A stretch of 26,456 nucleotides of DNA from a virus: IMG/VR virus record IMGVR_UViG_3300009183_000323, positions 1-26,456 of that record. One strand, given 5' to 3'. Each line of letters opens with the position of its first letter. Positions within the stretch are counted from its first letter, which is position 1. The notes beneath the pieces are model-generated. The model was given only the letters and a program-made list of their open reading frames with translations, did no database searches and was not told where the DNA came from. The translations under genes were made by a program, and so were the position numbers. Shown one piece after another: positions 5,452 to 25,080 of the stretch.

Positions 5452-6695
5452 TAGTATGTGCCGCCAAAAACTCCGCTGGTAAAGTTGCCAGTACCAGTAA
5501 TTGACAGTCCTGTTGCCGTGAGGTCAAATCTTTGCGTTCCAAGGATAGAGATACCAAACTCACCAGATCCGGGACGGTAAATACCTGTTGAGGTCTCCGA
5601 GCCAAAGTTCAACGATGGGCCGCCAGCCGTTCCATCAATAAGCGACAAAGAATTAGCGCCTGCGGTAATGGTTGCCGCATTGAGCAAGTTGGTAGAGTCG
5701 CAAACAAGAATTACTTGTTGACTAGGGGTTATTACTGCCGAAGATGCCCCAGACACATTGGTGGTAAATGTGATCGTGTATCCCGGCCCGCCACCATTTG
5801 TCTGATTTGTGACGTAGTAGACCTGAATTGTTTGCGGCACCACAATGGTGACGTTGCCAGTCAAAATGCCTGTGTACTTCTGGATGGTGTTTGACGCCTC
5901 TGCGGCGGTCAATGTGTACGTTCCAGAGGTAACTGCCTTGGTCAACTGGCTGAAGTTGAATTGCGTGTTTTGACCAAGACCAACGGTGTAAAAAGCCGAG
6001 CCAGAACAGCAAATAATGCACGAGTCATCAGGCTGCAAAATGATGGAAGCAGCGCCATTAATCAGGTTACCACCCGATGGGGAAACGGTCAGCGTACCAG
6101 TGCCGCCGTTTCTAAGCAGCATGAACCAATTATTGCCAAGCGTGCCGACAGAGGAGAGCGTTAGGGTTCCAGCGCCGCCAGTCCAAACGTAGGATGTTGC
6201 CCTGTCAGTAGTAAGCGCCGTGTAGTTTGTTCCAAATGTTTGTACAGGGTGCGCAGTGTTGAGCGTGTTGGTGATTGCAAGCAGCCCATATCCAGCAAGC
6301 GTTGCGGCATCAGTATTGGATGAACCCAAACCAAACGCAATGATTCCCCAAGTGCCAGACTCAGTTGGATTTGCAGTGATGTAGATGTACTGCGCCTGAC
6401 TGGGCTGCACAGTAACGATTACATGGGCACCAGAGTAGTCATAAACCGTAACTGCAAAGCTGCCAGTATTGCGGATTAAGGCATCCTGACCAACAGAGGC
6501 TTGGTTTGCTGGCGGCATATACAGGCCGTATGCAGCGGATGATGAACTAACCTGCATGATCCGAGCGGCCACACTGTCCGTAACGCTGCCATTGATGGGC
6601 CACTGCAACTGCGTATTTGCAGTCAGGGTAATTGAACGGAACGAAACGTCCGTTGGCTGGATTACTTGTCCAGTAAAAGGTGATGTAAAACTCAT
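5451..6695 (-). CDS. tail fibre-like virion protein (414 aa)
   Basis: The 414-residue product begins MSFTSPFTGQVIQPTDVSFR, an N-terminal element I associate with a conserved fibre or tail family of environmental phages. It is beta-rich: ITLTANTQLQWPI, QDALIRNTGSFAVTVYDYSG, SGTWGIIAFGLGSS, YVWTGGAGTLTLSSVGTLG. A Cys cluster (SCIICCSG, residues ~225-232) is unusual for such a protein. Residues ~360-400 (SLNFGSETSTGIYRPGSGEF, GISILGTQRFDLTATGLSI) match a segment common near fibre C-termini, and the end is GVFGGTY, like the GGTF end of the 786-residue fibre. GAGG precedes the ATG. It lies between an adaptor-like gene and the nozzle-like gene, so it is probably attached to the tail base. Confidence 0.65.
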   Translation of the reverse strand: MSFTSPFTGQVIQPTDVSFRSITLTANTQLQWPINGSVTDSVAARIMQVSSSSAAYGLYMPPANQASVGQDALIRNTGSFAVTVYDYSGAHVIVTVQPSQAQYIYITANPTESGTWGIIAFGLGSSNTDAATLAGYGLLAITNTLNTAHPVQTFGTNYTALTTDRATSYVWTGGAGTLTLSSVGTLGNNWFMLLRNGGTGTLTVSPSGGNLINGAASIILQPDDSCIICCSGSAFYTVGLGQNTQFNFSQLTKAVTSGTYTLTAAEASNTIQKYTGILTGNVTIVVPQTIQVYYVTNQTNGGGPGYTITFTTNVSGASSAVITPSQQVILVCDSTNLLNAATITAGANSLSLIDGTAGGPSLNFGSETSTGIYRPGSGEFGISILGTQRFDLTATGLSITGTGNFTSGVFGGTY

Positions 6696-7327
6696 GTGTC
6701 CCTCACAATTGCTTGGCGGTCAGCTACGCGAATCACATTCTCGTTTTGCAATACAGCAATGATTTTGTCGTACTGGCCTTGCCACATGGGAATGCGCTCG
6801 TCGTTTTTCAGGAAAGGCATTGCTTGCAGCAACGAGCCATAAAGTAACGCCTGTGGGGCGTATTGGGTGAACCAGTTGGATTGGTTGGTCGAATCAAGGG
6901 GCTGGTTGCGCTCGTAGTACAAGACCTCGTAGCTGTACGCAGCCGCCGGGGTGGGCGCTATCAGCCAATGCTCGTAGTCGTAGTCGCAGAAGTACAGTGG
7001 AACGTCCGTTGAACTGGCGCTGGGCCAATACTCACGCAAGTATTCGTAGGTGCGCAGCAGGACGGGTTGGCGTTTACCGGCCACCGTCACGTTCATGGAG
7101 ACCGTCTTGCGCCAACGCGCTGGCTTTGCAATGGTGGCCTCGCCCAGAACCATGTTGCTGCCCACCACCACCAAGTTGCCAAGGAATTTGATCTCGGAGG
7201 CAATAATTTGCTCCGCCAGCATGATGAACTGAGGAATTTTTGCCAGCGTGGCGGCGTCCGTCCGCTCCAAGTAGGACTGAATGTCTTCTACAAGGGAGTC
7301 ATACGTCATTACCGAAGCGGTTGTCAT
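6692..7327 (-). CDS. second adaptor-like tail protein (211 aa)
   Basis: The 211-residue product begins with helical TYDSLVEDIQSYLERTDAAT and LAKIPQFIMLAEQIIASEIK. It then has ATIAKPARWRKTVSMNV, VLLRTYEYLREYWPS, YDYEHWLIAPTPAAAYSYEV and a helical end (LLYGSLLQAMPFLKNDERIP). This layout (N-terminal helices, a beta middle, C-terminal helices around QYAPQALLYGSLLQA) is that of adaptor proteins joining portal to tail in short-tailed phages such as SU10, as I know the family. No enzyme motif is seen. AAGGA precedes the ATG, and the stop overlaps the next gene as ATGA. With the 353-residue protein this genome would have two adaptor-like proteins; which one contacts the portal is not clear from sequence. 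Confidence 0.6.
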   Translation of the reverse strand: MTTASVMTYDSLVEDIQSYLERTDAATLAKIPQFIMLAEQIIASEIKFLGNLVVVGSNMVLGEATIAKPARWRKTVSMNVTVAGKRQPVLLRTYEYLREYWPSASSTDVPLYFCDYDYEHWLIAPTPAAAYSYEVLYYERNQPLDSTNQSNWFTQYAPQALLYGSLLQAMPFLKNDERIPMWQGQYDKIIAVLQNENVIRVADRQAIVRDT

Positions 7328-7336
7328 CTGTTTTCC

Positions 7337-7678
7337 TTATCCGACATTGCGCTCGAAATGTGGGCAATCCACCAAGGACTTGAAATTCCCGCCCCAACGG
7401 TTTTTTGGGTGTAGCGACTCCCAATAGGTTCCCAAAGGCGCGAGGACGCCCTTGTCCCATATTATCTGCCCATCCTTGAAGAAATTCAAGTCAATCGCGC
7501 ACCTCTTCAGGTGAATTGAATTAAGGGTCTTAGAGCGGCCTGTATTGACGTAAATGGCCTGTTGCTCTGGTGTGCGTGCTAACTCGCCTCCAGTGACCAT
7601 AAAACCTTGTTCTGTGGCGTATTTGATGAGGGCGCAGGCATCCAGTAGGAATGCGGCTTGTTCTTGACTCAGGCTCAT
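7337..7678 (-). CDS. endolysin, M15-type L-Ala-D-Glu/D-Ala-D-Ala peptidase
   Basis: The 113-residue product is a compact M15-family peptidase. H56 and D63 lie in SIHLKRCAIDLNFF, the SxHxxxxAxD zinc motif. WESLHPKNRWGGNFKSLVDC contains the NRWGGNF signature, and D104-C-P-H107 supplies the third zinc ligand with an acidic residue at the place of the catalytic base (E in Ply500-type enzymes). It would cut peptidoglycan stem peptides after the holin opens the membrane. It has no signal peptide, so release depends on the holin. AAAGGGGG lies just upstream of the ATG. Its length is short but normal for single-domain phage enzymes. Confidence 0.85.
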   Translation of the reverse strand: MSLSQEQAAFLLDACALIKYATEQGFMVTGGELARTPEQQAIYVNTGRSKTLNSIHLKRCAIDLNFFKDGQIIWDKGVLAPLGTYWESLHPKNRWGGNFKSLVDCPHFERNVG

Positions 7679-8193
7679 TCTTTGCCCCCTTTACGCATCT
7701 CCATGACCTTCTCAACGGTACGACCGCCAAAGTAAGCAGTCATCACCAACATACCCCATTGGCCCAGCAAATTGACGTAGGCTTCTTGAACTTGAATCCC
7801 TGCGGCGCTTAGACCAGCAAAAATCAAATAAGCGGTGAGGATGTACAGCAGAGTGCCGGGGCGTATATTCTTAGATAACCACGAGTCGGAAGCCATATCA
7901 GCCTTCCAACGGTCAGTGACGTTGTTGTCTTGGCTGGCTTGAGCCGCCAACAAGGCTTTGAGTTCTTCCTGCTCCAAACGGGCTTTCTCAATGCCGAGTT
8001 CAAGCAAGCGCTCTTCGTGGTCATATTGCAACTGGCGCAACTTGGCGACCTCAGCATCAGATGGATTGTCGGAAATCTTCACGCCAAGGGCGTTCTCGAC
8101 AACTTCTTTGCCCTTTGCTTGAATCGCAGAAGACAAAAGACCCAAGCCGTTTGAAGCGAGGGTCGAGAGTAGGGAGGCTACGATTGGAATCAT
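7675..8193 (-). CDS. holin (3TM / GTA_holin type)
   Basis: The 172-residue product matches the build of the GTA_holin_3TM group. It has an N-terminal hydrophobic or amphipathic segment (IPIVASLLSTLASNGLGLLS), a charged coiled coil at residues ~48-90 (DHEERLLELGIEKARLEQEE), the conserved-looking DRWKADMASDSWLSKNIRPG (~94-113), and two hydrophobic segments (TLLYILTAYLIFAGLSAAGI and LGQWGMLVMTAYFGG). It ends EMRKGGKE. It would form inner-membrane holes at lysis time and release the endolysin encoded directly downstream, whose ATG overlaps this stop (ATGA). AAAGGA precedes its own ATG. Confidence 0.75.
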   Translation of the reverse strand: MIPIVASLLSTLASNGLGLLSSAIQAKGKEVVENALGVKISDNPSDAEVAKLRQLQYDHEERLLELGIEKARLEQEELKALLAAQASQDNNVTDRWKADMASDSWLSKNIRPGTLLYILTAYLIFAGLSAAGIQVQEAYVNLLGQWGMLVMTAYFGGRTVEKVMEMRKGGKE

Positions 8194-8912: not shown

Positions 8913-11900
8913 TTATCCGAACATAAGAAAGAATTTGCCGCCGCTGCCTGTGACTGCACCAGCGCTGAATATCCATCCCAACGACCCGTTGTTGGTTGAG
9001 TTGGCCCCTGCGTACCAAGTGCTTGACAGGTTGTACGCACGCACACCAGTGATGGCTAAGTAATCAGGCGTTGTGACCGTACCGCTTGACAGGATCAACG
9101 TGCCGGGGCTAGATGCCGATGTGCCTTGGATTGTCAGCACCTTGCCGACTGTGCCTGTGCCGGTGAATTGAGTCACCGTCTGGGTTGTTGTGTCAATGGT
9201 GATGTTGGTTGCGGCTGTCGCACTGTAGGTGTTGGTGATGTTCTTAAAGGTGTTGTTGCCGGAGATCGTCAACGCACCAGCACCGCCTTGGTTCAGGGTG
9301 ATGCCTGAGTAGGAGATGCCGCCGCCAGCAAAGGTCTTGGCAGATGCGCTAGTCAGGCTGATTGTGCCTGTGCCTGTGACTGTAAGGTTTGTTGAGTTTG
9401 TGGCAACAAATCCACTTGTCCCTGCAATCAACAAAGTTCCAGAACCAAGGGCAACTGTTCGGACGTTTGAGTAAGAAGATGCAAAACTAGAGTTTGCCCC
9501 TGAAAGGGTTACGTTGTAAGTGTTTGCGTTAAACGTGCCTCTTACAACATCAACAGCCCCTCCAATGTTTCTGCTAGTCTCAAATGCGTCTTGCAGTGTT
9601 ACAGACCCTCCGGGCGTATCTATGGAAAACGGCTGAGTAAACGTCCTGCCTGCGCTTGTAATTGTCTGACTGCCGCGCCCTGAAAAGTTCAAATACCCCG
9701 TACCCGTCAGCGTAGTGCCAGTACCGTTGATCCAGTTGCCGTAGATCGTAGGTGTAGTTGTTCCTGTAGCCAGCGTCATCGTGTTGCTGGTACGGGCAGA
9801 CATATCAATCGTGCCGATGTTGTAATTGGCGTTGACCGTTACTGTGTTGCCGCTAGACAAACCAGTTGCTTCAAAGAGGCAGGTATCTTGTGCAAGCGGG
9901 AAGTTGTTTACCGCTGGCGCACCACCGCTAGTAGCCGCCCAACCAATCGCGCTCCAGTTGCCACCAGCAGCAAGGTTCCAGTACCGAGTAACCCCTGCAC
10001 CAAACGTAATCCCGCTGTTGCCTTTAGCGTCACCCAAGCGAGTACCAGATACAGGAGCAGCAGCACCAGCAATAGTGATGTCACGGAAGTCAGCGTCTGT
10101 TCCTGAGAAAGCAGCACAGGTCAATGTGCGTGTTGTGCCTATGGTGTCTGAACGCAAGAATTGACGCATTGTTGCGTTGGTTCCTGCGGAGAGCGTTAGA
10201 GTACCGTTGATGGTTTGGTTGTCGCCCATGACGGCATTTTTTAATCCAGCGGATGTGATGCCAGTCAACGACAGGTTGTTGAAGGTGTTGCCATTACCAC
10301 CACCCCCATATATTGATATCGTACCTGCAATAGTGCTAGTAAAACTTACGTTATAAAAAGTTTGGTTGTTTCCAAAAAGTATTGGGCTAGAGGAAGATAG
10401 ATTTATTTGAGATGTACTTGCGGTGCAAGTTAAATTAGCGCGATTTGTTTCAACGGTTCCAAAATTAATTGGGGTAGTACCGGAAATAGTTGTTGTTCCT
10501 GTTCCAAAATTTATGGTTCTTAAATTTACATTGTTTGAACTTATACCTGCTGTTGTTAAATTATAAGTAGCAAGACTAAATGAACCATTTGTCACAGTTA
10601 ATGTTGACGATCCTATGTCCAATGCACTGCCAAGCGTCCAACCACAACCAACACCGTTAACCGTAGTAGCGGAAGCCAGCGTCACACCATTAGTCGTTAG
10701 CGTCCTGCCTGTACTAGAACCAGTCAGCGTAATTGTTCCGGTGTAGGAGTTTGTAATACCCGTAGCAGCCAAACTCACATCGCCGTGGATAGCCAATGGC
10801 GCAGTGCCAGCAAAAGTCACGTTACCCACAGCAGGGCCAGCCATCGTCAATGCAGCACAACGAAGCTGCGTGGCTGTGCAAGTGACCGTGTACGCCGTGG
10901 CGTTGGATAGCGAGTCAAATATCACTGCATCCGCAGATGTAGGAACCGATGCAGGGCCAGCACCACCAGAGGTTGTTGCCCAGTTGGTTGTGGTCGTTGC
11001 GTCCCATGTGCCTGTGCCACCACGCCAGTAGCGCGTTGTAGCGGTAGGAGCAGCGGTAAGGATAAATCCCGTGCCACCGGTAGAGTTAGCGCCAGCATAA
11101 AACTCGCCGGGGGACGTACCTGACATAGCTGCGGTGCCAAGAGCAAGGTAGTCTACGCCGGATACCCGCGCACCAGCAATCGTAAATGTTGCCGCTCCCG
11201 TAACTGTGACTACGTTGCCTACCGTGCCGGTAACTGTCCACGCGCCATAGGTTACTGATGTAGCAAAGAATGAAATTGTGTGGGCAACAGTTTTAGTAGA
11301 CGCAAGTTCTGTGAATTGACCGCCACCTGAAATATCTAGTGTTGATATGCCAGTTGCCCCGCCAATCGTAAGTTTGTTATAGGAAAGCCCGTTAGCATTA
11401 AAAGTTCGTGCTGAAGTGCTAGTGTCAGAAAGAACAATATTAGCTGTGCCTTTATAAAAGGCCAAAGTTGCGCTGGCTGTCCAAACAGTTCCTACTCCAG
11501 ATAGTGTCCATGTGCCACTACCCATCTTTAAGGTTGCGGAAGTTGCATTTGCAGAAAATAAACCCGTAGTCACGTTGTACGTCACAGCATCAAACGTGCC
11601 GCTGGTCAGGGTCAGGGTTCGTGTAGCGCCAACCGTTAGAGCATCAGCAAGTTGTACAGTGCCTGTTACGGAGTCAATTGTTATTGGGCATCCAAAAGTT
11701 ATTGCATTACTCGTAATGGTTTGAGTGCTACGTCCACCAAATGTAATAGTTCCCGTTGTACTTGAGGATGTAACGCCTGTACCAAACAACCAATTACCAT
11801 AAACAGATGGCGTATTGGTGCTAGTTGTCAACGTCATTGCACTTGTTCGTGCAGAAGCGTTAAACGTACCGATGTTCCACGCGGCGTCAATTGTGATTGT

Positions 11901-13880
11901 TCCTGTCACACTACCCGTGTTGTCAAACACCGCAGTGTCTTGCGCTAACGGAAACTGATTGATGTCAGGCGTTCCACCAGAAGCAGGACACCAACCCGTA
12001 GCGCTCCAGTTCTGAGCGCCAGCAAGGTTCCAGTACACCGTCTTAGCAACAGGGAACGTGATGCTTGTGTTGCCACCGCAGTCCCCCGCCCTTGTTGGCG
12101 ATGATCCTGCCGCAGCACCAGCAAGCGTGATGTCGCGGAAGTCGCAGTCGGTAGCGGAGAGAGTGCCAACAGTTAGAGTGCGGGCAGTTCCTATAACGCT
12201 AGAGCGGACAAAAATGCGGCGTACTGCTGTGGCTCCAGCAACGGTGAGGGTTCCGGTGATGGTTTGGTTCGCCCCGAATCTACAGCCAATAAAACCAGCA
12301 GAGGCGGGGGCTGTAAAGGTTAAATTATTAAAAACATTAGCCCCAGTTATATCGCATGTCCCGGCTGTTGTCCCTGTAAATGTTGCGTTATAAAAAGTAG
12401 CTCCGTTCCCAATAATAGAAGCCACCGCAGATATATTTATTTGAGATGTTCCAGAATTAAAAGTTAAAATTGGGTTTACAAAATTGATTGGAGTAGAACC
12501 GCTAAAAGTTAATGTGCTTGACCCAAGGCTAATTGCCGCAACTGTAGAACTAGAGGCTTGAATACCAAGAGCGGTAACATTGAAATTTTTAGTGTCAAAC
12601 GTGCCGTTGGTGACGGTCAACGTAGTTGTGCCAATGTTTAGTGCATCAGCAAGTTGAACTGTGCCGCCATAAGAATCAACAGTTAGCGCCTGTGTAAATG
12701 TTTTTGCAGCACTGGTAATTGTTTGCGTATTGCGACCTGAGTAAGTAAGTGCGGCTGTGCCAGATAGAGTTGTACCAGAACCATTTGTCCAATTACCATA
12801 AATAGTGAATGCGGTTGTAGCCAACGTCATTGCGCTAGTGCGACCAGACATATCTACCGTGCCCGTATAGGGGATGGAGGCATTCATTGTGATCGTGCCA
12901 GTCACCGAGCCAGCATTGGTGAATGTTGCAGTGTCTTGCGCTAATGGAAAGTTGTCTGTTGATGGCGTACCTGTTGATGTGGTTGCCCAGCCTGTTGCAG
13001 ACCAGTTTTGCGCCCCAGCAAGGTTCCAATACACCGTCTTGGCTGCATCAAAAGTAATTCCGGAGCAACCAGCCAAGTTGCCGATGCGTGTGCCAGAGAT
13101 AGGCGCAGAAGTGCCAATGACGTAGATGTCGCGGAAGTCTGCATCAGTCAGGCTTGGTGCGCTGTTGATGGTGAGGGTTTGGGCAATGCCGTATGTGACT
13201 CCACGGAACCATACTCGGCGGTTACCTGCTGTGCCTGTGGTGGACAGTGTGCCGTTGATTGTTTGGCGAGAGTCAAAAGTAACTTGCGTTACGCCAGCCG
13301 ATGCTGGTGCAGTCACAGTCAAATTGTTAAACGTGTTTGCACCAGAAATGGGTTTTGTTTGTGCGGCTGTTCCTGTAAAAGATACGTTGTAAAAAGTTAC
13401 ACCAATACCCAAATTTGACCCACCATCAATCGAAACAACACCGCCCGAACCAATAATTGAGGAAGTTCCTGCATTAAAAGTTAAATTTGTGTTGGTGGTA
13501 AAAGAAACTATTGTTGTGCTTGCAGTCAACGTCACCGTACTGCTACCCAGATTGATCGTGCGGGTGTTGCTGTTGCTGGACGACAGGGATGTCGCAGTGA
13601 CGTTGTAGTTGTTGGTGGTGAAGGTTCCTTGGGTTAACGTGATAGCACCAGACAAAGTAAGCGTTCCACCAAGACTCAATGTTGCAGTGGCAGCGTTAAT
13701 CGTGACCGAAATTACAGATACGTTGTAGTTTGTGGTTACTGTAAAACTACTGTCAATAGTTACATCGTCGGCAGCGCCGGGAACAGACGCACCACTAGCG
13801 CCACCAGATGTGGCAGACCAGTTTGTCGTAGTGGTCGCGTCCCAAGTACCTGTACCGCCAACCCAAAAACGTGCAGCCAT
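8913..13880 (-). CDS. giant modular adhesin-like virion protein (1655 aa)
   Basis: This is one uninterrupted 5-kb frame, very rich in Thr, Ser, Gly, Ala and Asn, with beta-strand periodicity throughout and almost no Lys or long helices, so probably a beta-helix or beta-solenoid. It begins RFWVGGTGTWDATTTTNWSA (residue 4 on). Trp-rich headers recur at W6, W285, W617, W952 and W1301, dividing it into five modules of 279-354 residues. Two header types occur: WxGGTGTWDATTTTNW (W6, W952) and YWNLAGxxNWSAxGW (W285, W617, W1301). It ends YAGANSTNNGSLGWIFSAG followed by GGKFFLMFG. Comparable beta-strand repeats occur in bacterial adhesins and phage appendage proteins. No enzyme motif is seen. CAGGAG lies six bases upstream of the ATG. 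Position between fibres and the lysis cassette suggests a host-contact appendage. Confidence 0.65.
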   Translation of the reverse strand: MAARFWVGGTGTWDATTTTNWSATSGGASGASVPGAADDVTIDSSFTVTTNYNVSVISVTINAATATLSLGGTLTLSGAITLTQGTFTTNNYNVTATSLSSSNSNTRTINLGSSTVTLTASTTIVSFTTNTNLTFNAGTSSIIGSGGVVSIDGGSNLGIGVTFYNVSFTGTAAQTKPISGANTFNNLTVTAPASAGVTQVTFDSRQTINGTLSTTGTAGNRRVWFRGVTYGIAQTLTINSAPSLTDADFRDIYVIGTSAPISGTRIGNLAGCSGITFDAAKTVYWNLAGAQNWSATGWATTSTGTPSTDNFPLAQDTATFTNAGSVTGTITMNASIPYTGTVDMSGRTSAMTLATTAFTIYGNWTNGSGTTLSGTAALTYSGRNTQTITSAAKTFTQALTVDSYGGTVQLADALNIGTTTLTVTNGTFDTKNFNVTALGIQASSSTVAAISLGSSTLTFSGSTPINFVNPILTFNSGTSQINISAVASIIGNGATFYNATFTGTTAGTCDITGANVFNNLTFTAPASAGFIGCRFGANQTITGTLTVAGATAVRRIFVRSSVIGTARTLTVGTLSATDCDFRDITLAGAAAGSSPTRAGDCGGNTSITFPVAKTVYWNLAGAQNWSATGWCPASGGTPDINQFPLAQDTAVFDNTGSVTGTITIDAAWNIGTFNASARTSAMTLTTSTNTPSVYGNWLFGTGVTSSSTTGTITFGGRSTQTITSNAITFGCPITIDSVTGTVQLADALTVGATRTLTLTSGTFDAVTYNVTTGLFSANATSATLKMGSGTWTLSGVGTVWTASATLAFYKGTANIVLSDTSTSARTFNANGLSYNKLTIGGATGISTLDISGGGQFTELASTKTVAHTISFFATSVTYGAWTVTGTVGNVVTVTGAATFTIAGARVSGVDYLALGTAAMSGTSPGEFYAGANSTGGTGFILTAAPTATTRYWRGGTGTWDATTTTNWATTSGGAGPASVPTSADAVIFDSLSNATAYTVTCTATQLRCAALTMAGPAVGNVTFAGTAPLAIHGDVSLAATGITNSYTGTITLTGSSTGRTLTTNGVTLASATTVNGVGCGWTLGSALDIGSSTLTVTNGSFSLATYNLTTAGISSNNVNLRTINFGTGTTTISGTTPINFGTVETNRANLTCTASTSQINLSSSSPILFGNNQTFYNVSFTSTIAGTISIYGGGGNGNTFNNLSLTGITSAGLKNAVMGDNQTINGTLTLSAGTNATMRQFLRSDTIGTTRTLTCAAFSGTDADFRDITIAGAAAPVSGTRLGDAKGNSGITFGAGVTRYWNLAAGGNWSAIGWAATSGGAPAVNNFPLAQDTCLFEATGLSSGNTVTVNANYNIGTIDMSARTSNTMTLATGTTTPTIYGNWINGTGTTLTGTGYLNFSGRGSQTITSAGRTFTQPFSIDTPGGSVTLQDAFETSRNIGGAVDVVRGTFNANTYNVTLSGANSSFASSYSNVRTVALGSGTLLIAGTSGFVATNSTNLTVTGTGTISLTSASAKTFAGGGISYSGITLNQGGAGALTISGNNTFKNITNTYSATAATNITIDTTTQTVTQFTGTGTVGKVLTIQGTSASSPGTLILSSGTVTTPDYLAITGVRAYNLSSTWYAGANSTNNGSLGWIFSAGAVTGSGGKFFLMFG
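8913..13880 (-). repeat. five ~1-kb tandem modules inside the adhesin gene
   Basis: The first bases of the header Trp codons lie at 13865 (W6), 13028 (W285), 12032 (W617), 11027 (W952) and 9980 (W1301). Spacings are 837, 996, 1005 and 1047 bases, then 1068 to the end of the gene. Recurrent internal segments include DADFRDI/DCDFRDI with GTRxGN before YWNLAG headers, DYLAL/DYLAI with FYAGANST/WYAGANST at the other module ends, TFYNVSFT/TFYNATFT, and NTFNNLTVTAPASAG/NVFNNLTFTAPASAG. Copies are similar but diverged at the DNA level; some short words are identical, e.g. the 15-base word at 10401-10415 and 12435-12449. Confidence 0.8.
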
Positions 13881-13883
13881 GCT

Positions 13884-14054
13884 TTACTCCTGTGGAGTTT
13901 CAGCGGGAGGTGCAGTTACCACGGCAATCCAGTTGTCCACACGTTGCTGCTTCATCGCTTGGATTTCAGCATCGGTAAGCGTGTGGTCATCCGGTAGATG
14001 CAAGGCATCAGCAAACTTGCCGTGGGCGGTTTCAAATTCAAAGTCGATCTTCAT
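13884..14054 (-). CDS. small acidic protein before the giant adhesin (56 aa)
   Basis: This short gene starts at ATG 14052-14054 with AAGGAG six bases upstream and ends TAA at 13884-13886. The product begins MKIDFEFETAHGKFADALHL and continues PDDHTLTDAEIQAMKQQRVD, NWIAVVTAPPAETPQE. It is acidic, with a predicted beta then helix arrangement and a Pro-rich tail; it has no membrane segment. I recall similar short proteins next to tail fibre genes of environmental phages. Its stop lies in the ribosome-binding region of the 1655-residue gene (CAGGAG immediately precedes the TAA), so the two are closely linked. A fibre assembly helper is possible but unproven. Confidence 0.65.
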   Translation of the reverse strand: MKIDFEFETAHGKFADALHLPDDHTLTDAEIQAMKQQRVDNWIAVVTAPPAETPQE

Positions 14055-14064
14055 GTCATGCTCC

Positions 14065-14877
14065 TTATGCTTGAGTCGCTACAGCGACCACATCCCAACG
14101 AGTGTTTGTGCTGTTGTAGATGCAGCCAACGTAAACCATTTTATTCGCGGTAGTGGTGGTGGGCAGCGTTACGCCAATGACGGTGTAGGTGGCGTTCCAA
14201 GAGATGGTCTGGGCAGTGCCGTTGTCCAAGATGCGGATCGTCAGCCTGTTGCCGTCCACTGGGGTGCCTGTGGGCGCTGCCACCGTCAATCCTACCGCCT
14301 GAGCGGTCAGGTTGTACTGGTCAAAGGATGATATGTCTGGCGTCAGTGTGGCAGTTGATGCGGAGCTAGAAGTCCGTGGATCAATGCGTTTGTTGGTCAA
14401 TGTTGCAGTCCCGCTGCCAGTTGGAAAGCCGCTTGCTGTGTTTGTGTTGTTGCCAAGGGCCGTGACAACGCCAGTGCCTGTAGTGGTCGTTGCAGGAGCA
14501 ACCCCAGCGCCACCACCCAAGACGATCGCACTAGCCGCCAATACGGCAGAGGTAGCCCAAGCCGTTCCGCTGGTAAAGTAAGGAATACCTCCGCTTGTTC
14601 CGGCCACGGTCAGGGCCAAGGTGCCGCTTGTGGTGATTGGAGAGCCGCCAACAGAAATAATGCCGCCAGTGAACGACTGGGCCACCGATGAGACGGTTGC
14701 GGAAGATGAAGTATTGGATGCCAGCAGCTTTACAACGCCTGAACTGTTTTTGAAGTACAGCTTCTCGTCTAGGGTGTTTAAGGCAAGTTCGCCTGCGACC
14801 AAATTGCCAGCAAGCGGAGCAGTAGCAGCCGTGGTGCTGTAGTACAGCGATATGGGGGTGTAACCAGTTGCAGCCAT
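14065..14877 (-). CDS. second tail fibre-like protein (270 aa)
   Basis: I chose the ATG at 14875-14877 (MAATGYTPISLYYSTTAATA), which has GAGG eight bases upstream and starts the conserved element; an in-frame ATG eight codons earlier would overlap the preceding gene. Residues ~10-50 (AGNLVAGELALNTLDEKLYF) form a fibre N-terminal element where GELALN and KLYFKN are typical. The middle is Gly/Thr/Ala-rich. Residues ~170-270 form a compact C-terminal domain (DISSFDQYNLTAQAVGLTVA, NRLTIRILDNGTAQTISWN, NSTNTRWDVVAVATQA) known from the ends of other phage fibres and probably receptor-facing. It forms a fibre set with the 786-residue protein directly upstream. Confidence 0.7.
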   Translation of the reverse strand: MAATGYTPISLYYSTTAATAPLAGNLVAGELALNTLDEKLYFKNSSGVVKLLASNTSSSATVSSVAQSFTGGIISVGGSPITTSGTLALTVAGTSGGIPYFTSGTAWATSAVLAASAIVLGGGAGVAPATTTTGTGVVTALGNNTNTASGFPTGSGTATLTNKRIDPRTSSSASTATLTPDISSFDQYNLTAQAVGLTVAAPTGTPVDGNRLTIRILDNGTAQTISWNATYTVIGVTLPTTTTANKMVYVGCIYNSTNTRWDVVAVATQA

Positions 14878-14887
14878 TTTTTCTTCC

Positions 14888-17248
14888 TCAGAAAGTGCCA
14901 CCAGTAACGCCTGCGGTCAGGGCATTATTGGTGTAATTGTAGGTCAATAAGGTGTTTGTTGTAGTGGGTTGATTGCCTGTGGCACTGGCAGAAAAATGAA
15001 GATAATTTGTTGCCCCAGTGCCCGCCGTAAGAGCCACGTTGGTGGCGTTTGTTGCAGTACCAGCAGTCGCCGCATTCAGGTTGGCTACCTGCGTAGTGGA
15101 GGCCACAGTAAATGGTGCCGTACCAGTTGCCAAGGTTGAGGTAATAACACCAGTGGCCGATACCGTGGTAAATGCGCCTGTGCTGGCCGTAGTAGCGCCG
15201 ACCGTGCCATTGATGTTGATTGAAGCCGTGCCAGTCAGGTTGGTGACCGTGCCACTGCTTGGAGTACCCAGAACGCCGCCATTGACCAATACAGATCCTG
15301 CGGTGCCTACCGCAATAGCTAAAGCAGTTGCAACCCCAGTACCTAGACCAGTGATAGAGCCTACCGCTGGCGTAATCGTGGTGTTGCCTGCCAAGGTAAG
15401 CTGGCCCTGTGCATTGACCGTAAAGGTTCCCACCGCCGTGGCCGAACCATATGCGCCAGCGGTAACCGCTGTATTGGTTATGCTGAACTGCGTGCCAGTA
15501 AGGGTTAATCCTGTGCCCGCCGTGTAGGTTCCCGCGCCAGAGAACTGCGTCCAAGAGATTGGACTTGTGCCAACCGTGGTCACTGGTAGGGTCTGCACCC
15601 AGCCTGTGTTGGCGTAGAGCGTACCGCTGGTGACAAACGTAAAGTCGCCGCTGGCAATCTCAACATTGGTGTCAAAGTCAGTAGCGCGGGTAAGAACCGT
15701 GCCGCCAGTGGCCCATGTGTAGATGCCGTTGTTGGCAGACGTAACTTCGTTCTTGATGAGCAAACGGTCGCCATTGACCAGCGTGTAACCATCCAAGACG
15801 GTCAAAGCAACCGACAGGGTAAGGGTTGCCCCGACCCCTGAAGCGCCATTGTTGTAAGTTACCGTGCCGCCAGTGATTGAGGCAAGGGTTGCTGGAGTGG
15901 CAGCACTACAAGATGCATGGACATTTAGACTCTGGGCTACTGCGTCCACATACTGTTTGGTGGCAAGCTGCAACGCCGATACGGGGTCTTGGGTAACGGC
16001 CACCGAAGTCAGTCCGCCAAGAGTCAAAGATGAGCCGCCAAGCGATATGGCGGTTGTTCCTACGGTCAAAGAGCTATTGGTCAGTGAGGCATTGGCTATG
16101 TTGGAAAGCGTGTTATTTGCCCCGCTGATGGTCTTGTTGGTCAGCGTCTGGCTACCCGTCAGCGTTGCCACGGTGCTGTCTATGGCAATGGTCACCGCAG
16201 CAGACCCGTTGTAGCTTGTGCCAGACAGCCCAGTGCCAATGGTCAAAGCGTTGGAGGCTGTGGCCGTCACGGTGACTGAACCACCCAAACTCACCGATGA
16301 GCCGTTGATGGTGATTGCGCTGTTGGTCAGGCCAGCATTGGGGATTGTGGTGGCCGCAGTCATCACGCCAGTGCCGTTGCCGTACACATAGCCCGTCAAT
16401 GTTGCTGCGCCAGTGCCTCCGTTTGAGGCATTTAGAACTCCACCCAATACAATTGGCCCACTTGTTGGAATAGAGGGAGTAAAACCAGTTGATCCCGCGC
16501 TGAAACTATTGACAACGCCACCACCAATCGTACTAAAAACTGTCCAAGATCCGTTGTTGTACCCCTCGTAGGCCAACAAATCCACGTTGTATCGGATTTG
16601 TCCGTTTGATCCAAGAGGCTGCTGTGCGTTGGTTCCAACAGGAACGGTAACTGCACCAGTTCCGGGAAGTATTGGGTTGTCAGCAATTGCAATCGTTGGG
16701 TTGGCTAAAGCTCCGTTGCCGTCTGCAACAGAAATCTGATCCGATGTGCCAATAATGTTGCGCCCAGCAACGGCAGTGCCCGTAGAGTTAAGCGCAAGCA
16801 TTCCCGTGCCGCTCAGGTCAGCAATGGATTGCGCCAGACCAGACAAAGCCAATGTAGGGTTTCCACTAACGCCATTTGCATTAGAAACACTCAATCCATT
16901 GCCAGAAACAACTATCGAGCGTGCAACGACCGTTGAACCAGAGGTCTTCACAATCAGGCCAGTGGAGGCTGTTTCCAAGCTGCCAGAAGCGCCATTGAGG
17001 CTTAATCGGTAGAAGGACTGTGCGCCGCCATCAGTAAGGCCCAAACCAGTGCCGGTGGAGAAGTACCTGCTGTTTGGCAGGGTTGGCTCTTGATTGATGG
17101 TCAGGAAGGTTTGAGTTTGGCTTGGAGAGGCCGCGATCGCAGCCGTGGTGGTTCGTACCGTTACCCCGTTCTGGACGATGGGGACGGCCTCAGTACCAGT
17201 AATAGCACCAGCGGCAGGCAATTGGGTAATAACAACTTGTGCGGACAT
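14888..17248 (-). CDS. tail fibre protein (786 aa)
   Basis: This is a long Gly/Thr/Ser/Ala-rich protein of fibre type. Residues 4-35 (VITQLPAAGAITGTEAVPIV) form an N-terminal element shared by many phage fibres, presumably the virion attachment end. Residues ~195-240 (NGQIRYNVDLLAYEGYNNGS) match a small domain recurrent in fibres. Residues ~360-415 carry TLTNKTISGANNTLSNI and ISLGGSSLTLGG repeats. LQLATKQYVDAVAQSLNVHA (~427-446) leads into a domain at ~480-555 (DGYTLVNGDRLLIKNEVTSA, ANTGWVQTL). Residues ~630-700 hold a GTP/GTG repeat block (NGGVLGTPSSGTVTNLTG). It ends LTAGVTGGTF. The likely role is host recognition or structural extension on the tail. Its start is coupled to the zinc-finger gene (TAATG). 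Confidence 0.75.
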   Translation of the reverse strand: MSAQVVITQLPAAGAITGTEAVPIVQNGVTVRTTTAAIAASPSQTQTFLTINQEPTLPNSRYFSTGTGLGLTDGGAQSFYRLSLNGASGSLETASTGLIVKTSGSTVVARSIVVSGNGLSVSNANGVSGNPTLALSGLAQSIADLSGTGMLALNSTGTAVAGRNIIGTSDQISVADGNGALANPTIAIADNPILPGTGAVTVPVGTNAQQPLGSNGQIRYNVDLLAYEGYNNGSWTVFSTIGGGVVNSFSAGSTGFTPSIPTSGPIVLGGVLNASNGGTGAATLTGYVYGNGTGVMTAATTIPNAGLTNSAITINGSSVSLGGSVTVTATASNALTIGTGLSGTSYNGSAAVTIAIDSTVATLTGSQTLTNKTISGANNTLSNIANASLTNSSLTVGTTAISLGGSSLTLGGLTSVAVTQDPVSALQLATKQYVDAVAQSLNVHASCSAATPATLASITGGTVTYNNGASGVGATLTLSVALTVLDGYTLVNGDRLLIKNEVTSANNGIYTWATGGTVLTRATDFDTNVEIASGDFTFVTSGTLYANTGWVQTLPVTTVGTSPISWTQFSGAGTYTAGTGLTLTGTQFSITNTAVTAGAYGSATAVGTFTVNAQGQLTLAGNTTITPAVGSITGLGTGVATALAIAVGTAGSVLVNGGVLGTPSSGTVTNLTGTASININGTVGATTASTGAFTTVSATGVITSTLATGTAPFTVASTTQVANLNAATAGTATNATNVALTAGTGATNYLHFSASATGNQPTTTNTLLTYNYTNNALTAGVTGGTF

Positions 17249-17618: not shown

Positions 17619-18680
17619 TTACCTCGTGTAAACGCTGATATTTGGCGCAAAGTAGATTGGAGACTTGTCGCGCTCTTCCTCTTCGGCTTGCGATAGGTAC
17701 TTGGCAGCTTGCGCCTCAAGATAAACAACGCGGTTCAAGTCCACACCGGGCAATTCCAGCCCCATTTGGTGGGCCAGCATACTCACCACGGCCATGTACC
17801 AGCGCTGTGGCACCTCTAACTCGCCATACAGGTCACCAACGTCCATGATCTGACGCGAGTACCAAATGGTCATCTGGTAAAAAGCGTTTTGAGGCGTCGG
17901 CCACAGCACAATCTCGCTTTGAGGGATCGTGCGGTTGAACCAAAACTGGAACGGCTGGTTGGCTGTGAAGTTCTTGTTGGGCAGGTTGGTGTAGTCGTCG
18001 CGGTTTAAGCGCGACATGGTGATCTCGGTGGAGTTATTGCCCAAGTACCACTCACGCAAGCTCAATGTGGTGCCGTTGTAGGCTCGAATGCGGTAGTACG
18101 GCACAGTCTGGCCGTTATCAATGTCCGTCCAAACCCATTCATTGTTGGTCACCGTGATTGTGCCAAGGTCAACCAGCGTCTTCCAAGTGGTGTTGTCCTG
18201 AGAGTATTCGTAAATGATCGACCAAGTGCCCGATGCCGCAGGAAGAAAGCCAATTGATCCTATGAAAATGGGATTTGATGGGCCGTAATTGACCGCAATG
18301 TTGCCATTTGCCGATGTCTGGGTGCATATCGTGTCCACATCACCGTCATAGACGTTACCCAAGGTGCCGCCAGCAGAAGACGTATACGCGCCGCTTGGGC
18401 GCTCCATCCAGCGATACAAGGCGTTTAGAACGTCATTGCCGCCAACAGGCAGCAGGTATGTTGCTCGGTCAGGAGAGAAGCCGTAAACCTTCTTGTCGAT
18501 GGCCCAATATTGGATGCCAATGTTGATCAGGTTGGACAGCAGGAAGAACAGCGACTCACGGGCCGACAGAACCTGCTCGGAAGTCAACTCCTCGGCCAGC
18601 TTGCCGCACCGACGAGCGCCGTGGTCAATCAGGGTTTGGACTGTGATTACCGTTGTCCCAACCGTTCCAGAGTAGGCCAT
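17619..18680 (-). CDS. head-tail adaptor-like protein with inserted beta-sandwich
   Basis: The 353-residue product starts with a helical region (VQTLIDHGARRCGKLAEELT, then SARESLFFLLSNLI) and ends with a helical domain (PQRWYMAVVSMLAHQMGLEL, KYLSQAEEEERDKS). Together these resemble the gp4-like adaptors that bind under the portal in short-tailed phages. Between them, residues ~96-216 form a distinct insert (NVYDGDVDTICTQTSANGNI, IIYEYSQDNTTWKTLVDLG, YYRIRAYNGTTLSLREWYLG) with the look of an F5/8 type C (discoidin-like) galactose-binding-type beta-sandwich: a loop binding pattern, a Trp-rich edge and a C-terminal YYRIRA strand. The backbone resumes at TEITMSRLNRDDYTNLPNK. AAAGGA precedes the ATG. 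Adaptor function is inferred from family likeness and position; the exact connector role is uncertain. Confidence 0.6.
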   Translation of the reverse strand: MAYSGTVGTTVITVQTLIDHGARRCGKLAEELTSEQVLSARESLFFLLSNLINIGIQYWAIDKKVYGFSPDRATYLLPVGGNDVLNALYRWMERPSGAYTSSAGGTLGNVYDGDVDTICTQTSANGNIAVNYGPSNPIFIGSIGFLPAASGTWSIIYEYSQDNTTWKTLVDLGTITVTNNEWVWTDIDNGQTVPYYRIRAYNGTTLSLREWYLGNNSTEITMSRLNRDDYTNLPNKNFTANQPFQFWFNRTIPQSEIVLWPTPQNAFYQMTIWYSRQIMDVGDLYGELEVPQRWYMAVVSMLAHQMGLELPGVDLNRVVYLEAQAAKYLSQAEEEERDKSPIYFAPNISVYTR

Positions 18681-23707: not shown

Positions 23708-24643
23708 TTAGCTCCTATTGTTTCGTGCTGCTTCTGCATACCGTTTGATCATCTTCGCGCGTTTTTGTGCGTCATCCCACATACCAGCGTCTTTCATTGC
23801 GCGAACCTGTTCGGGTTCAAGAACAAAAGAATTGCCGCTACCACGAGGTGACGACTCACGAGAAGAGCCGGTCACTAAACTTTTAGGTCTCCTTCTGGAT
23901 TGTTCATCATGACGATCATTATACTTATGAGGGAGCCGCCTTTGCAAGCGGCTGTCAAGCTCCTCCCAATACTCGTTCGTGGCGGGGTCATACCCCTCCT
24001 GAACCAATCGGTTGTCGATCACTTTGGCGATCTGGGAGTCCTCATCCTTGCCGTCTGGGTCGTACCAGCCGTTGTTTTCCATCCAGCTATTTGCCAGACG
24101 TTGTAACTTGGGGTTAACCGCCCCAGCCTCAGATCCGCTCTCGGCAGCCCGCGACTTGAAGTTTTGCATGGATTCCAGCTTGCGCTTGGAGTCGTACCAA
24201 AGCTCCTGCGCCCTAGCAAAAGAGGTGCCGTCAGCGTTGTCCGTAGCCTCTTTGAGCTTGGCCGTGGCGTATTGCAGGCGTAGCTGCTCATCCTCAATTG
24301 CCTTGTCAAATCGGGCCAAGTCGGCACCTGATTGTTTGCGCTCCAGCACGGATAGGCGCTCCACAAGCTGCTGGTTCTGGCGTTCCAGTAGCGTCAGCTT
24401 GGCGTCCTTCTCAACGTGGGTTTGTTTGATGTACTCCTTCTTGGCTCGGCGTCGGTTGCGACGGGCCTCTCGGATTGCATTGGTGTCACCCGGTTGATCG
24501 TTGTCGCCGTCATCGGAGGCGGAGATTTCACCGCCCTCGTTGTGGGGCGACTCAATGTGATCGGGTAGCTCTACCGTGGCAGAGCCGTCTTGTTCTTCAA
24601 CGACTGCGATGTCGTCAATGTCTTCTTTGGTTTCTTTGTTCAT
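23708..24643 (-). CDS. scaffold-like head assembly protein
   Basis: The 311-residue product has the build of a phage scaffolding protein. Residues 1-55 are very acidic (EDIDDIAVVEEQDG, ASDDGDNDQPGD), residues ~57-75 are Arg/Lys-rich (REARRNRRRAKKEYIK), and residues ~78-165 form a long charged coiled coil (LLERQNQQLVERLSVLERKQ). It ends in a basic helical tail (DDAQKRAKMIKRYAEAARN), comparable to the capsid-binding C-terminal helices of P22-type scaffolds. It contains no enzyme motif. Its position after the portal and before the capsid genes is the usual place for a scaffold. The ATG overlaps the GroES-like stop (TAATG) without a clear Shine-Dalgarno, so translational coupling is likely. The function is inferred from architecture and position rather than sequence identity. 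Confidence 0.65.
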   Translation of the reverse strand: MNKETKEDIDDIAVVEEQDGSATVELPDHIESPHNEGGEISASDDGDNDQPGDTNAIREARRNRRRAKKEYIKQTHVEKDAKLTLLERQNQQLVERLSVLERKQSGADLARFDKAIEDEQLRLQYATAKLKEATDNADGTSFARAQELWYDSKRKLESMQNFKSRAAESGSEAGAVNPKLQRLANSWMENNGWYDPDGKDEDSQIAKVIDNRLVQEGYDPATNEYWEELDSRLQRRLPHKYNDRHDEQSRRRPKSLVTGSSRESSPRGSGNSFVLEPEQVRAMKDAGMWDDAQKRAKMIKRYAEAARNNRS

Positions 24644-25080
24644 TAGATAAACGCTTTCATAGCAAGTGGGTCACCAGTTAGCTTTGCGATCACCTCGTGA
24701 TCGTTTAGCACCATGAATAAAGCTGGGTCTTCGTGGTCATCAGCGCCCGGAATAGGCACCTCCCAACGATCTCCGCCCCATTTGGGTACGCGGATGTATT
24801 CGCCAACCTCAATCCACGACCCTTCGGGCCACGGTTGCATGGTGTCGCGGTGTTTGAACGCCAGTGGGCCGATCTCTATGACCTTTGCCACCATGTTCTG
24901 CCACTTTTCGGTTTCTTTGGTTTCTTCAACCAATATGATTCCCGCGCTAGTTGTCTTCTGCTTTGCACGACGGAGTTGCACCAAGATGCGTCCGCCAAGG
25001 GGTTTTGCGCCGGGGTCTACGCTCGGAAAAGCCCAAGCTACGTCAGCTTCGTTAAAAGCTACCGGGTCATTCATTTTCAT
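24643..25080 (-). CDS. GroES-like co-chaperonin
   Basis: The 145-residue product resembles Cpn10/GroES. Around residues 28-34 is PLGGRILVQL, matching the conserved GroES start (PLxDRVLV). Residues ~40-52 (KQKTTSAGIILVEETKE) correspond to the mobile loop, with an Ile-Ile-Leu tripeptide where GroES carries the GroEL-binding Ile-Val-Leu. Then VAKVIEIGP matches the beta strand of the barrel, and EVGEYIRVPKWGG and LFMVLNDHEVIAKL match the distal strands and C-terminus. It is longer than bacterial GroES (~97 aa) because of an N-terminal extension and a Trp/Pro-rich roof region. Family knowledge (T4 gp31, RB49 CocO) suggests it works with host GroEL to fold capsid proteins. No GroEL gene is in view. 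The start could be this ATG or the one six bases downstream. The stop overlaps the scaffold start as TAATG. Confidence 0.75.
   Translation of the reverse strand: MKMNDPVAFNEADVAWAFPSVDPGAKPLGGRILVQLRRAKQKTTSAGIILVEETKETEKWQNMVAKVIEIGPLAFKHRDTMQPWPEGSWIEVGEYIRVPKWGGDRWEVPIPGADDHEDPALFMVLNDHEVIAKLTGDPLAMKAFI

Follow-up and report, generated by a model that had tools for sequence, protein, structure and literature searches.

A five-module protein with a predicted beta-helix fold and a small conserved partner gene: a candidate surface fibre of uncultured phages

Background

The described proteins closest to the one reported here are the tailspikes of phages P22, Sf6 and HK620 and the bacterial adhesins EtpA, Fap2, Ag43 and HMW1. 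Tailspikes and PL6 lyases cut polysaccharide, and a P22-type tailspike has a separate N-terminal domain. In structural models, the giant protein described below resembles the three tailspikes as a phage-encoded parallel beta-helix about one module in size (Z 12.9-15.8), and the four adhesins in its beta-helix fold (Z 9.8-15.3); the long adhesive rod of the latter may serve as a working analogy. The best tailspike matches span about one module, whereas the giant protein has five in tandem, with no separate N-terminal virion-binding domain and no enzyme family match. Unlike the adhesins it is situated in a phage structural operon, and no secretion domain or autotransporter barrel was matched at the sequence level in Pfam or NCBIfam.

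In its proposed role the giant protein may be compared with the long tail fibre of SU10, and adaptor genes lie near the giant gene. The available parts of PMC9509320 describe SU10 long fibres that dock on the adaptor ring and consist of two proteins, each a trimer. Limnohabitans phage DC31 (PQ492658), which is long-tailed, has the giant gene and its small partner gene in common with the phage studied here. BFVD holds a 754-aa model, A0A6J5T8W4, named only 'Parallel beta-helix repeat'. A literature search that left most subscription papers outside its reach found no description of the giant protein or its relatives, and the available parts of PMC12195039, PMC9509320, PMC5964084 and PMC6802176 do not describe it. 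The sequence analysed here, referred to as the window, is the whole 26,456-nt stretch of the IMG/VR virus record IMGVR_UViG_3300009183_000323.

Results

A single frame of five modules of two kinds

The giant gene is a single open frame on the minus strand, read from an ATG at 13880 to 8913 and encoding 1655 residues; the plus-strand reading of the same interval contains stops throughout. The frame opens directly with the first module header, with no domain ahead of it and no signal peptide visible by eye at the N-terminus. The protein is rich in Thr (20.2%), Gly (12.8%), Ala (11.4%) and Ser (10.3%), and poor in Glu (0.3%), His (0.1%) and Lys (0.9%). The motif T-x-T occurs 98 times, compared with 67±6.4 in shuffled sequences (n=500). 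The gene and its modules are as follows.

8913..13880, minus strand: giant gene, 1655 aa, five tandem beta-helix modules (fold predicted)
13044..13880, minus strand: module 1, residues 1-279; header A, body α
12048..13043, minus strand: module 2, residues 280-611; header B, body α; top structural match Sf6 tailspike, Z 15.8
11043..12047, minus strand: module 3, residues 612-946; header B, body β; matches PfbA, Z 14.1
9996..11042, minus strand: module 4, residues 947-1295; header A, body α
8916..9995, minus strand: module 5, residues 1296-1655; header B, body β, plus C-terminal tail; top structural match P22 tailspike, Z 15.1

A first-pass annotation of this DNA had placed header tryptophans at W6, W285, W617, W952 and W1301 and given module lengths of 279, 332, 335, 349 and about 354 residues. 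The positions proved exact on recheck, and the tryptophan spacings are 279, 332, 335, 349 and 354. Internal similarity was found throughout, all ten module pairs scoring above every one of 100 shuffles each (Z 8.6-37), and the proposed origin of five homologous modules by internal duplication is borne out by these alignments. The best-related pairs are modules 2 and 3 (145 identities in 311 aligned residues) and modules 1 and 4 (141 in 270). Five homologous repeats thus stand; five equivalent ones do not, as a five-way alignment separates the modules into two kinds. In that alignment header A, R(F/Y)WxGGTGTWDATTTTNW, begins modules 1 and 4, and header B, (V/R)YWNLAxxxNWSAxGW, begins modules 2, 3 and 5. 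The body ends are likewise of two types, α in modules 1, 2 and 4 and β in modules 3 and 5, the labels being assigned by best score because the two profiles overlap and the β profile also scores α bodies. The resulting architecture is A-α, B-α, B-β, A-α, B-β. Module 3 ends in the coupling motif FYAGANSTGG, and module 1 of the window is short, at 279 residues against a median of 332 aa across 21 homologues, counting the window's phage.

Tandem Repeats Finder reported no array in the DNA of 8913-13880 because the DNA copies are too diverged; a DNA repeat search of the giant gene recovered short repeats spaced by about 1.0 and 2.05 kb, most with 60-80% identity.

Predicted fold and structural matches

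AlphaFold2 was run on two halves of the protein, with 45-row alignments each. Mean pLDDT was 87.2 (pTM 0.74) for residues 1-946 and 85.5 (pTM 0.79) for residues 947-1655, falling below 50 at residues 1-48 and about 1620-1655, and almost all secondary structure in the models is strand. Rather than unrelated consecutive domains, the prediction gave confident all-beta models with beta-helix proteins as best matches; the body of the protein is predicted to be a parallel beta-helix. Foldseek, run against PDB with the second half only, returned no significant E-value (best 1.1); its list comprised mostly beta-helix proteins, and also the S-layer protein RsaA and Toll-like receptors. The fold match therefore rests on the models and on a second look with VIA-align. 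Among 86 chains aligned in this way, the Sf6 tailspike scored Z 15.8 (residues 282-647, 293 aligned, 4.2 Å), the EtpA adhesin Z 15.3 (residues 280-603), the HK620 tailspike Z 14.2 and PfbA Z 14.1 (residues 648-946). Among 61 further-aligned chains, the P22 tailspike matched the second-half model over module 5 with Z 15.1 and the Fap2 adhesin scored Z 14.9. PL6 lyases were also among the structural matches, a beta-helical antifreeze protein aligned with both models (Z 11.5 and 12.1), and leucine-rich-repeat chains ranked lower (Z 4-6). These lists hardly bear on modules 1 and 4, and families absent from them were not counted as excluded. The adhesin-like, beta-rich build claimed at first pass agrees with this predicted all-beta fold, which resembles both phage tailspikes and bacterial adhesins.

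In BFVD, which includes relatives from uncultured Caudovirales phages, there were 11 matches at E 0.001 or better, not all of them clear relatives. The best, A0A6J5T8W4 ('Parallel beta-helix repeat', uncultured Caudovirales phage), was found at E 4.7e-63 with 59% identity over 766 alignment columns and a TM-score of 0.72 by query length; by sequence and fold similarity, the giant protein belongs to the same family. Searches of Pfam, NCBIfam, PHROGs and PDB sequences gave no convincing match, and no PHROG fibre family was matched up to E 1. The top lines, DUF881 in Pfam (E 0.0056, 17 of 25 bits), phrog_4306 in PHROGs (E 0.08) and PRK09506 in NCBIfam (E 0.094), were taken as chance. In these searches the giant protein had no match to a standard tail family, in keeping with the earlier remark that the standard podovirus tail does not explain it.

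A conserved partner gene and the surrounding virion genes

The genes around the giant gene include the following.

6692..7327, minus strand: 211-aa SU10-type adaptor protein (PF24175, 8.4e-23)
7337-7678, minus strand: endolysin, a lysis gene downstream of the giant gene
7675-8193, minus strand: holin, a lysis gene downstream of the giant gene
13884..14054, minus strand: conserved partner gene, 56 aa, 3 nt upstream of the giant gene
14065..14901, minus strand: 278-aa protein, phrog_3030, with a GELALNTLDEKLYFK stretch, upstream of the partner gene
14888..17248, minus strand: 786-aa fibre-like protein (phrog_30390, phrog_2647 'head decoration')
17619..18680, minus strand: 353-aa protein, weakly SU10-adaptor-like (20.3 bits, below Pfam's 27)

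Fibre-like and lysis genes thus flank the giant gene, as the first-pass annotation had it. Also downstream are genes for a 414-aa protein that weakly matches a tail fibre and for a structural protein of 827 aa in phrog_3287. The window's phage has two SU10-adaptor-like genes (17619-18680 and 6692-7327), one strong and one below cut-off, and a GroES-type co-chaperonin gene (24643-25080, minus strand; Pfam Cpn10, 9e-7) lies within its capsid gene block.

In 77 of 83 sequences (not all distinct; two are cut) the giant gene is immediately preceded by a homologue of the partner gene. Of the remaining six, four offer under 100 nt of upstream sequence, and in two the partner is found one or two predicted frames further up. 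With the partner gene as query, relatives were found in 547 of 579 IMG/VR candidate stretches, of which the best 80 were analysed; four of these had too little downstream sequence, leaving 76. Among these best matches, the partner runs straight into a header-A frame at 63 of the 76 loci and reaches one past an inserted frame at 10 more; of the last three, two reach the contig end without a header and the third has 271 nt downstream. Another frame follows the partner gene at 13 of the 76 loci, and the two inserted genes examined (L181:6274-6801 and L164:4409-5128) encode HNH endonucleases. The partner protein looks more conserved than the giant protein in most relatives. Its match to Pfam DUF2673, just above the cut-off (21.6 bits against 20) and shared by 8 of 10 members up to E 1, is uninformative. 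In phage records the partner gene was found in DC31 only, at E 0.01.

Among the 83 sequences with the giant gene, the cluster of the 211-aa adaptor is present in 37 and the phrog_3287 cluster, of which one representative was scanned, in 24; at least one of the two is present in 48. Relatives lie near differing capsid and portal types (phrog_1328 and phrog_267; phrog_156 and phrog_1216), one representative of each cluster having been scanned.

Limnohabitans phage DC31

DC31 was the sole match at E 1e-5 among 50,697 phage records. It carries the same five modules, read in two pieces (L082 and L083), and a 57-aa partner gene. Its giant gene spans the record ends; only the C-terminal end is annotated, as a hypothetical protein, and the record places two small genes within it on the opposite strand. 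The gene order is terminase, portal, ..., ORF5, ORF4, 57-aa gene, giant gene, head maturation protease, ..., major capsid, ..., tape measure, with the giant gene about 7.7 kb ahead of the tape-measure gene. Upstream, a 589-aa protein matches phrog_30390 and phrog_2647, like the 786-aa protein of the window (phrog_2647 'head decoration', 5.1e-17 in the window and 2.4e-26 in DC31), and a 118-aa protein contains a GELALNTLDEKLYFK-type stretch by eye.

We took DC31 to be a siphovirus because its tail is long (203 nm by TEM, according to the available text of PMC12195039), a tape-measure protein is encoded (phrog_24, 3.4e-51) and no tail-sheath match was found in it; the taxonomy line of the record reads Pakpunavirus. 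The available text of PMC12195039 names ORF4 and ORF5 as tail proteins, and another passage of it states that tail proteins 'are not identified'. ORF numbers were equated here with locus-tag numbers, which fits the authors' terminase (ORF12) and capsid (ORF126).

The C-terminus varies and is sometimes encoded separately

Two elements close the window's protein.

8973..9017, minus strand: coupling motif WYAGANSTNNGSLGW, residues 1622-1636
8916..8972, minus strand: 19-aa C-terminal tail, ending KFFLMFG

The C-termini of 71 distinct proteins were sorted. A short fused tail was found in 26: one of these (L017) is cut by the contig end, and the other 25 finish with hydrophobic residues, for example NFFLMF. 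A longer fused extension of 92-565 residues, some cut by contig ends, was present in 19, and in another 19 the gene is split just before a WYAGANSTNNGSLGW-like motif. The other seven are of other or incomplete type, and two of them end KFFFVFG. Between the window and relative L003, identity is 79% over the common part; after ...NSTNN of the motif, one continues for 24 residues and the other for 211.

Where the gene is split, the stop codon that follows VRAY(PL) shares bases with a -1 frame ATG (CTATGA, TTATGA, TAATGA or TGATGA). The split-off frame encodes M(T/S), at times one more residue, and then the WYAGANSTNNGSLGW-like motif; such frames run 48-433 codons as counted, the shortest being cut by a contig end. 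Programmed frameshifting, an idea raised by the 19 frames that stop after VRAY(PL) with the match continuing in -1, was put aside: no slippery heptamer was seen by eye, and a new ATG overlaps the stop. The split junctions (L012, L028, L055 and 16 other loci) take several forms, and the split may therefore have more than one origin. VTGVSATGxVGxV-like repeat proteins occur as a split-off C-terminus at L028:9575-10873, where no Pfam match was found, and as a separate upstream gene at L067:7182-7952, where no PHROG match was found.

Module order, module number and mosaicism in relatives

A relative was encoded in 357 of the 370 candidate stretches of IMG/VR found with the giant protein, and a search from another family member gave 303 relatives. 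The best 80 of the 357 and the best 80 of the 303 were analysed, two overlapping sets that favour full length. Among the relatives examined, 74 of 76 distinct closed frames with module hits show the standard module order. The two exceptions are both at L139: a frame of 1534 aa has five modules but body β in module 2, and one of 855 aa is short. Another 18 frames are truncated at the end of a contig or record and are consistent with the standard order as far as they extend; the DC31 gene accounts for two of them. A further short relative, of 623 aa, is encoded at L200. The first-pass annotation had held that length depends on module number. Since module number and order hardly change among the closed frames, this dependence is not supported; length varies mainly through module 1 and the C-terminus. 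Expansion and contraction of the array as a source of length was likewise unsupported in the relatives examined, which are best matches favouring full length. The short relatives at L139 and L200 show that module number has varied at greater distance.

In a tree of 105 modules from 21 loci, with bootstrap values that had not settled, the modules at positions 1, 3, 4 and 5 are each a single group, supported at 100/99 or better; module 2 is the exception and needs two changes. Module 1 groups with module 4, and module 3 with module 5. Modules group by position across phages; therefore, the duplications predate the spread of the family.

Identity between the same two phages varies from module to module, with inter-position correlations of 0.10-0.40 in 67 proteins. 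For L033 and L058 the five values are 65, 99, 83, 73 and 100% (L058 is cut inside module 5). Such unevenness indicates that the genes are mosaic. Tracts of at least 120 codons at 95% identity or more occur in 10 of 2211 pairs (19 loci, with two near-copies), compared with 38-53% identical codons elsewhere. A preference of recombination breakpoints for module borders was considered but not demonstrated. A loose first test placed 0.277 of breakpoints there against 0.125, a result inflated because headers are conserved; in a strict test, limited to long tracts and with the control on match vectors, 22 collapsed breakpoints gave a fraction of 0.227 against 0.149 (P 0.22).

A single scan of bacterial and archaeal genomes gave 38 candidate stretches, one of which encodes a relative; its contig is binned as Verrucomicrobia. 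As this contig also carries phrog_3287 and major-head-protein genes, it is probably a binned phage. At L139:9098-17120, on a Verrucomicrobia-binned contig with phage structural genes, giant-family genes of 855 and 1534 aa are nearly adjacent.

A diversity-generating retroelement, with the giant protein as a tropism protein of the Mtd type, was also rejected: no RVT_1 reverse transcriptase was found in any of 12 records holding the giant gene, including DC31 ('complete genome'; the others may be fragments), whereas 3 of 14 control rings were positive.

Discussion

With modest confidence, we read the giant protein as an elongated surface fibre of the virion, an adhesin of five tandem parallel beta-helices, which is tail-associated at least in podovirus-type phages. 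We infer a virion location, a rod shape, attachment to the particle, adhesion and a role for the 56-aa protein. The headers would cap every helix and hold the modules stacked as a stiff rod. A beta-helix rises 4.8 Å per coil, and if each module of about 335 residues forms 15-16 coils, a number that is assumed, the rod would be about 36-40 nm long. It may attach near the tail adaptor, perhaps via the upstream fibre-like proteins since there is no domain ahead of the first header, with the 56-aa protein as a possible assembly or attachment partner. The exchangeable C-terminus, whether fused or separately encoded, could be a tip or contact element. Through the fibre, the phage would reach a component of the host surface ahead of engagement by the tail proper. 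Diversity of the C-terminus and mosaic tracts fit a host-facing part.

The position of the giant gene among virion genes (SU10-type adaptor, fibre-like and phrog_3287) argues for a virion fibre, as does its occurrence with several capsid and portal types; the absence of a separate N-terminal virion-binding domain argues against one. That absence also makes the way of working of a beta-helix adhesin more likely than that of a P22-type tailspike. Attachment to the tail is favoured by the adaptor ring being the docking site of SU10 long fibres (available parts of PMC9509320), and by the DC31 gene following two genes that its authors named as tail genes. The place of the DC31 gene in the head block makes a head position a serious rival, in which a beta-helix rod anchored on the capsid as a decoration fibre would bind surfaces or host glycans weakly and reversibly. 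There the giant gene comes after the portal gene and precedes those for the head maturation protease, the major capsid protein and, at some distance, the tape measure, and in both phages an upstream gene matches 'head decoration' phrog_2647. We nevertheless consider a head fibre possible but rather unlikely, given the adaptor, fibre-like and phrog_3287 genes beside the window's copy, the adaptor and/or phrog_3287 cluster in 48 of the 83 sequences, and the naming of both upstream DC31 genes as tail proteins in the available text of PMC12195039.

That at least one beta-helix module cuts surface polysaccharide, as a tailspike-type depolymerase, is suggested by the tailspikes and PL6 lyases among the structural matches. 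Likeness of fold shows no function, however, no enzyme match came near cut-off in Pfam or NCBIfam, and the scarcity of Glu, His and Lys across the 1655 residues makes such an activity improbable. A role outside the virion, in which the phage makes a surface or secreted protein that acts on the infected cell, would accord with the missing virion-binding domain and with bacterial beta-helix adhesins matching about as well as tailspikes; with the gene inside a structural block, and a frame that opens on a module header where inspection by eye shows no signal peptide, we regard this as very improbable. Least credible of all is a Thr-rich beta-helix that binds an ice or mineral surface. Thr makes up 20% of the protein and the antifreeze protein aligned with both models, but other beta-helices outscore it and the excess of T-x-T (98 against 67±6.4 in 500 shuffles) is expected in any Thr-rich beta-strand protein.

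Beyond the fibre reading itself, we raise a further and distinctly tentative suggestion, that the 56-aa protein and the five-module rod form a portable two-gene cassette. It would pass across short- and long-tailed phages with unrelated heads, use a common docking and bear an exchangeable C-terminal tip, which in some phages would be separate, translationally coupled and re-joined via WYAGANSTNNGSLGW.

Conclusions

The solved beta-helix proteins that match best comprise about one module each; here five occur in a nearly fixed order in many uncultured phages, and the design recurs with a small, highly conserved partner gene. If this is an adhesion organelle, it would open a way to study how uncultured viruses recognise their hosts, and the adhesion reading can be tested now with DC31 and its Limnohabitans host.
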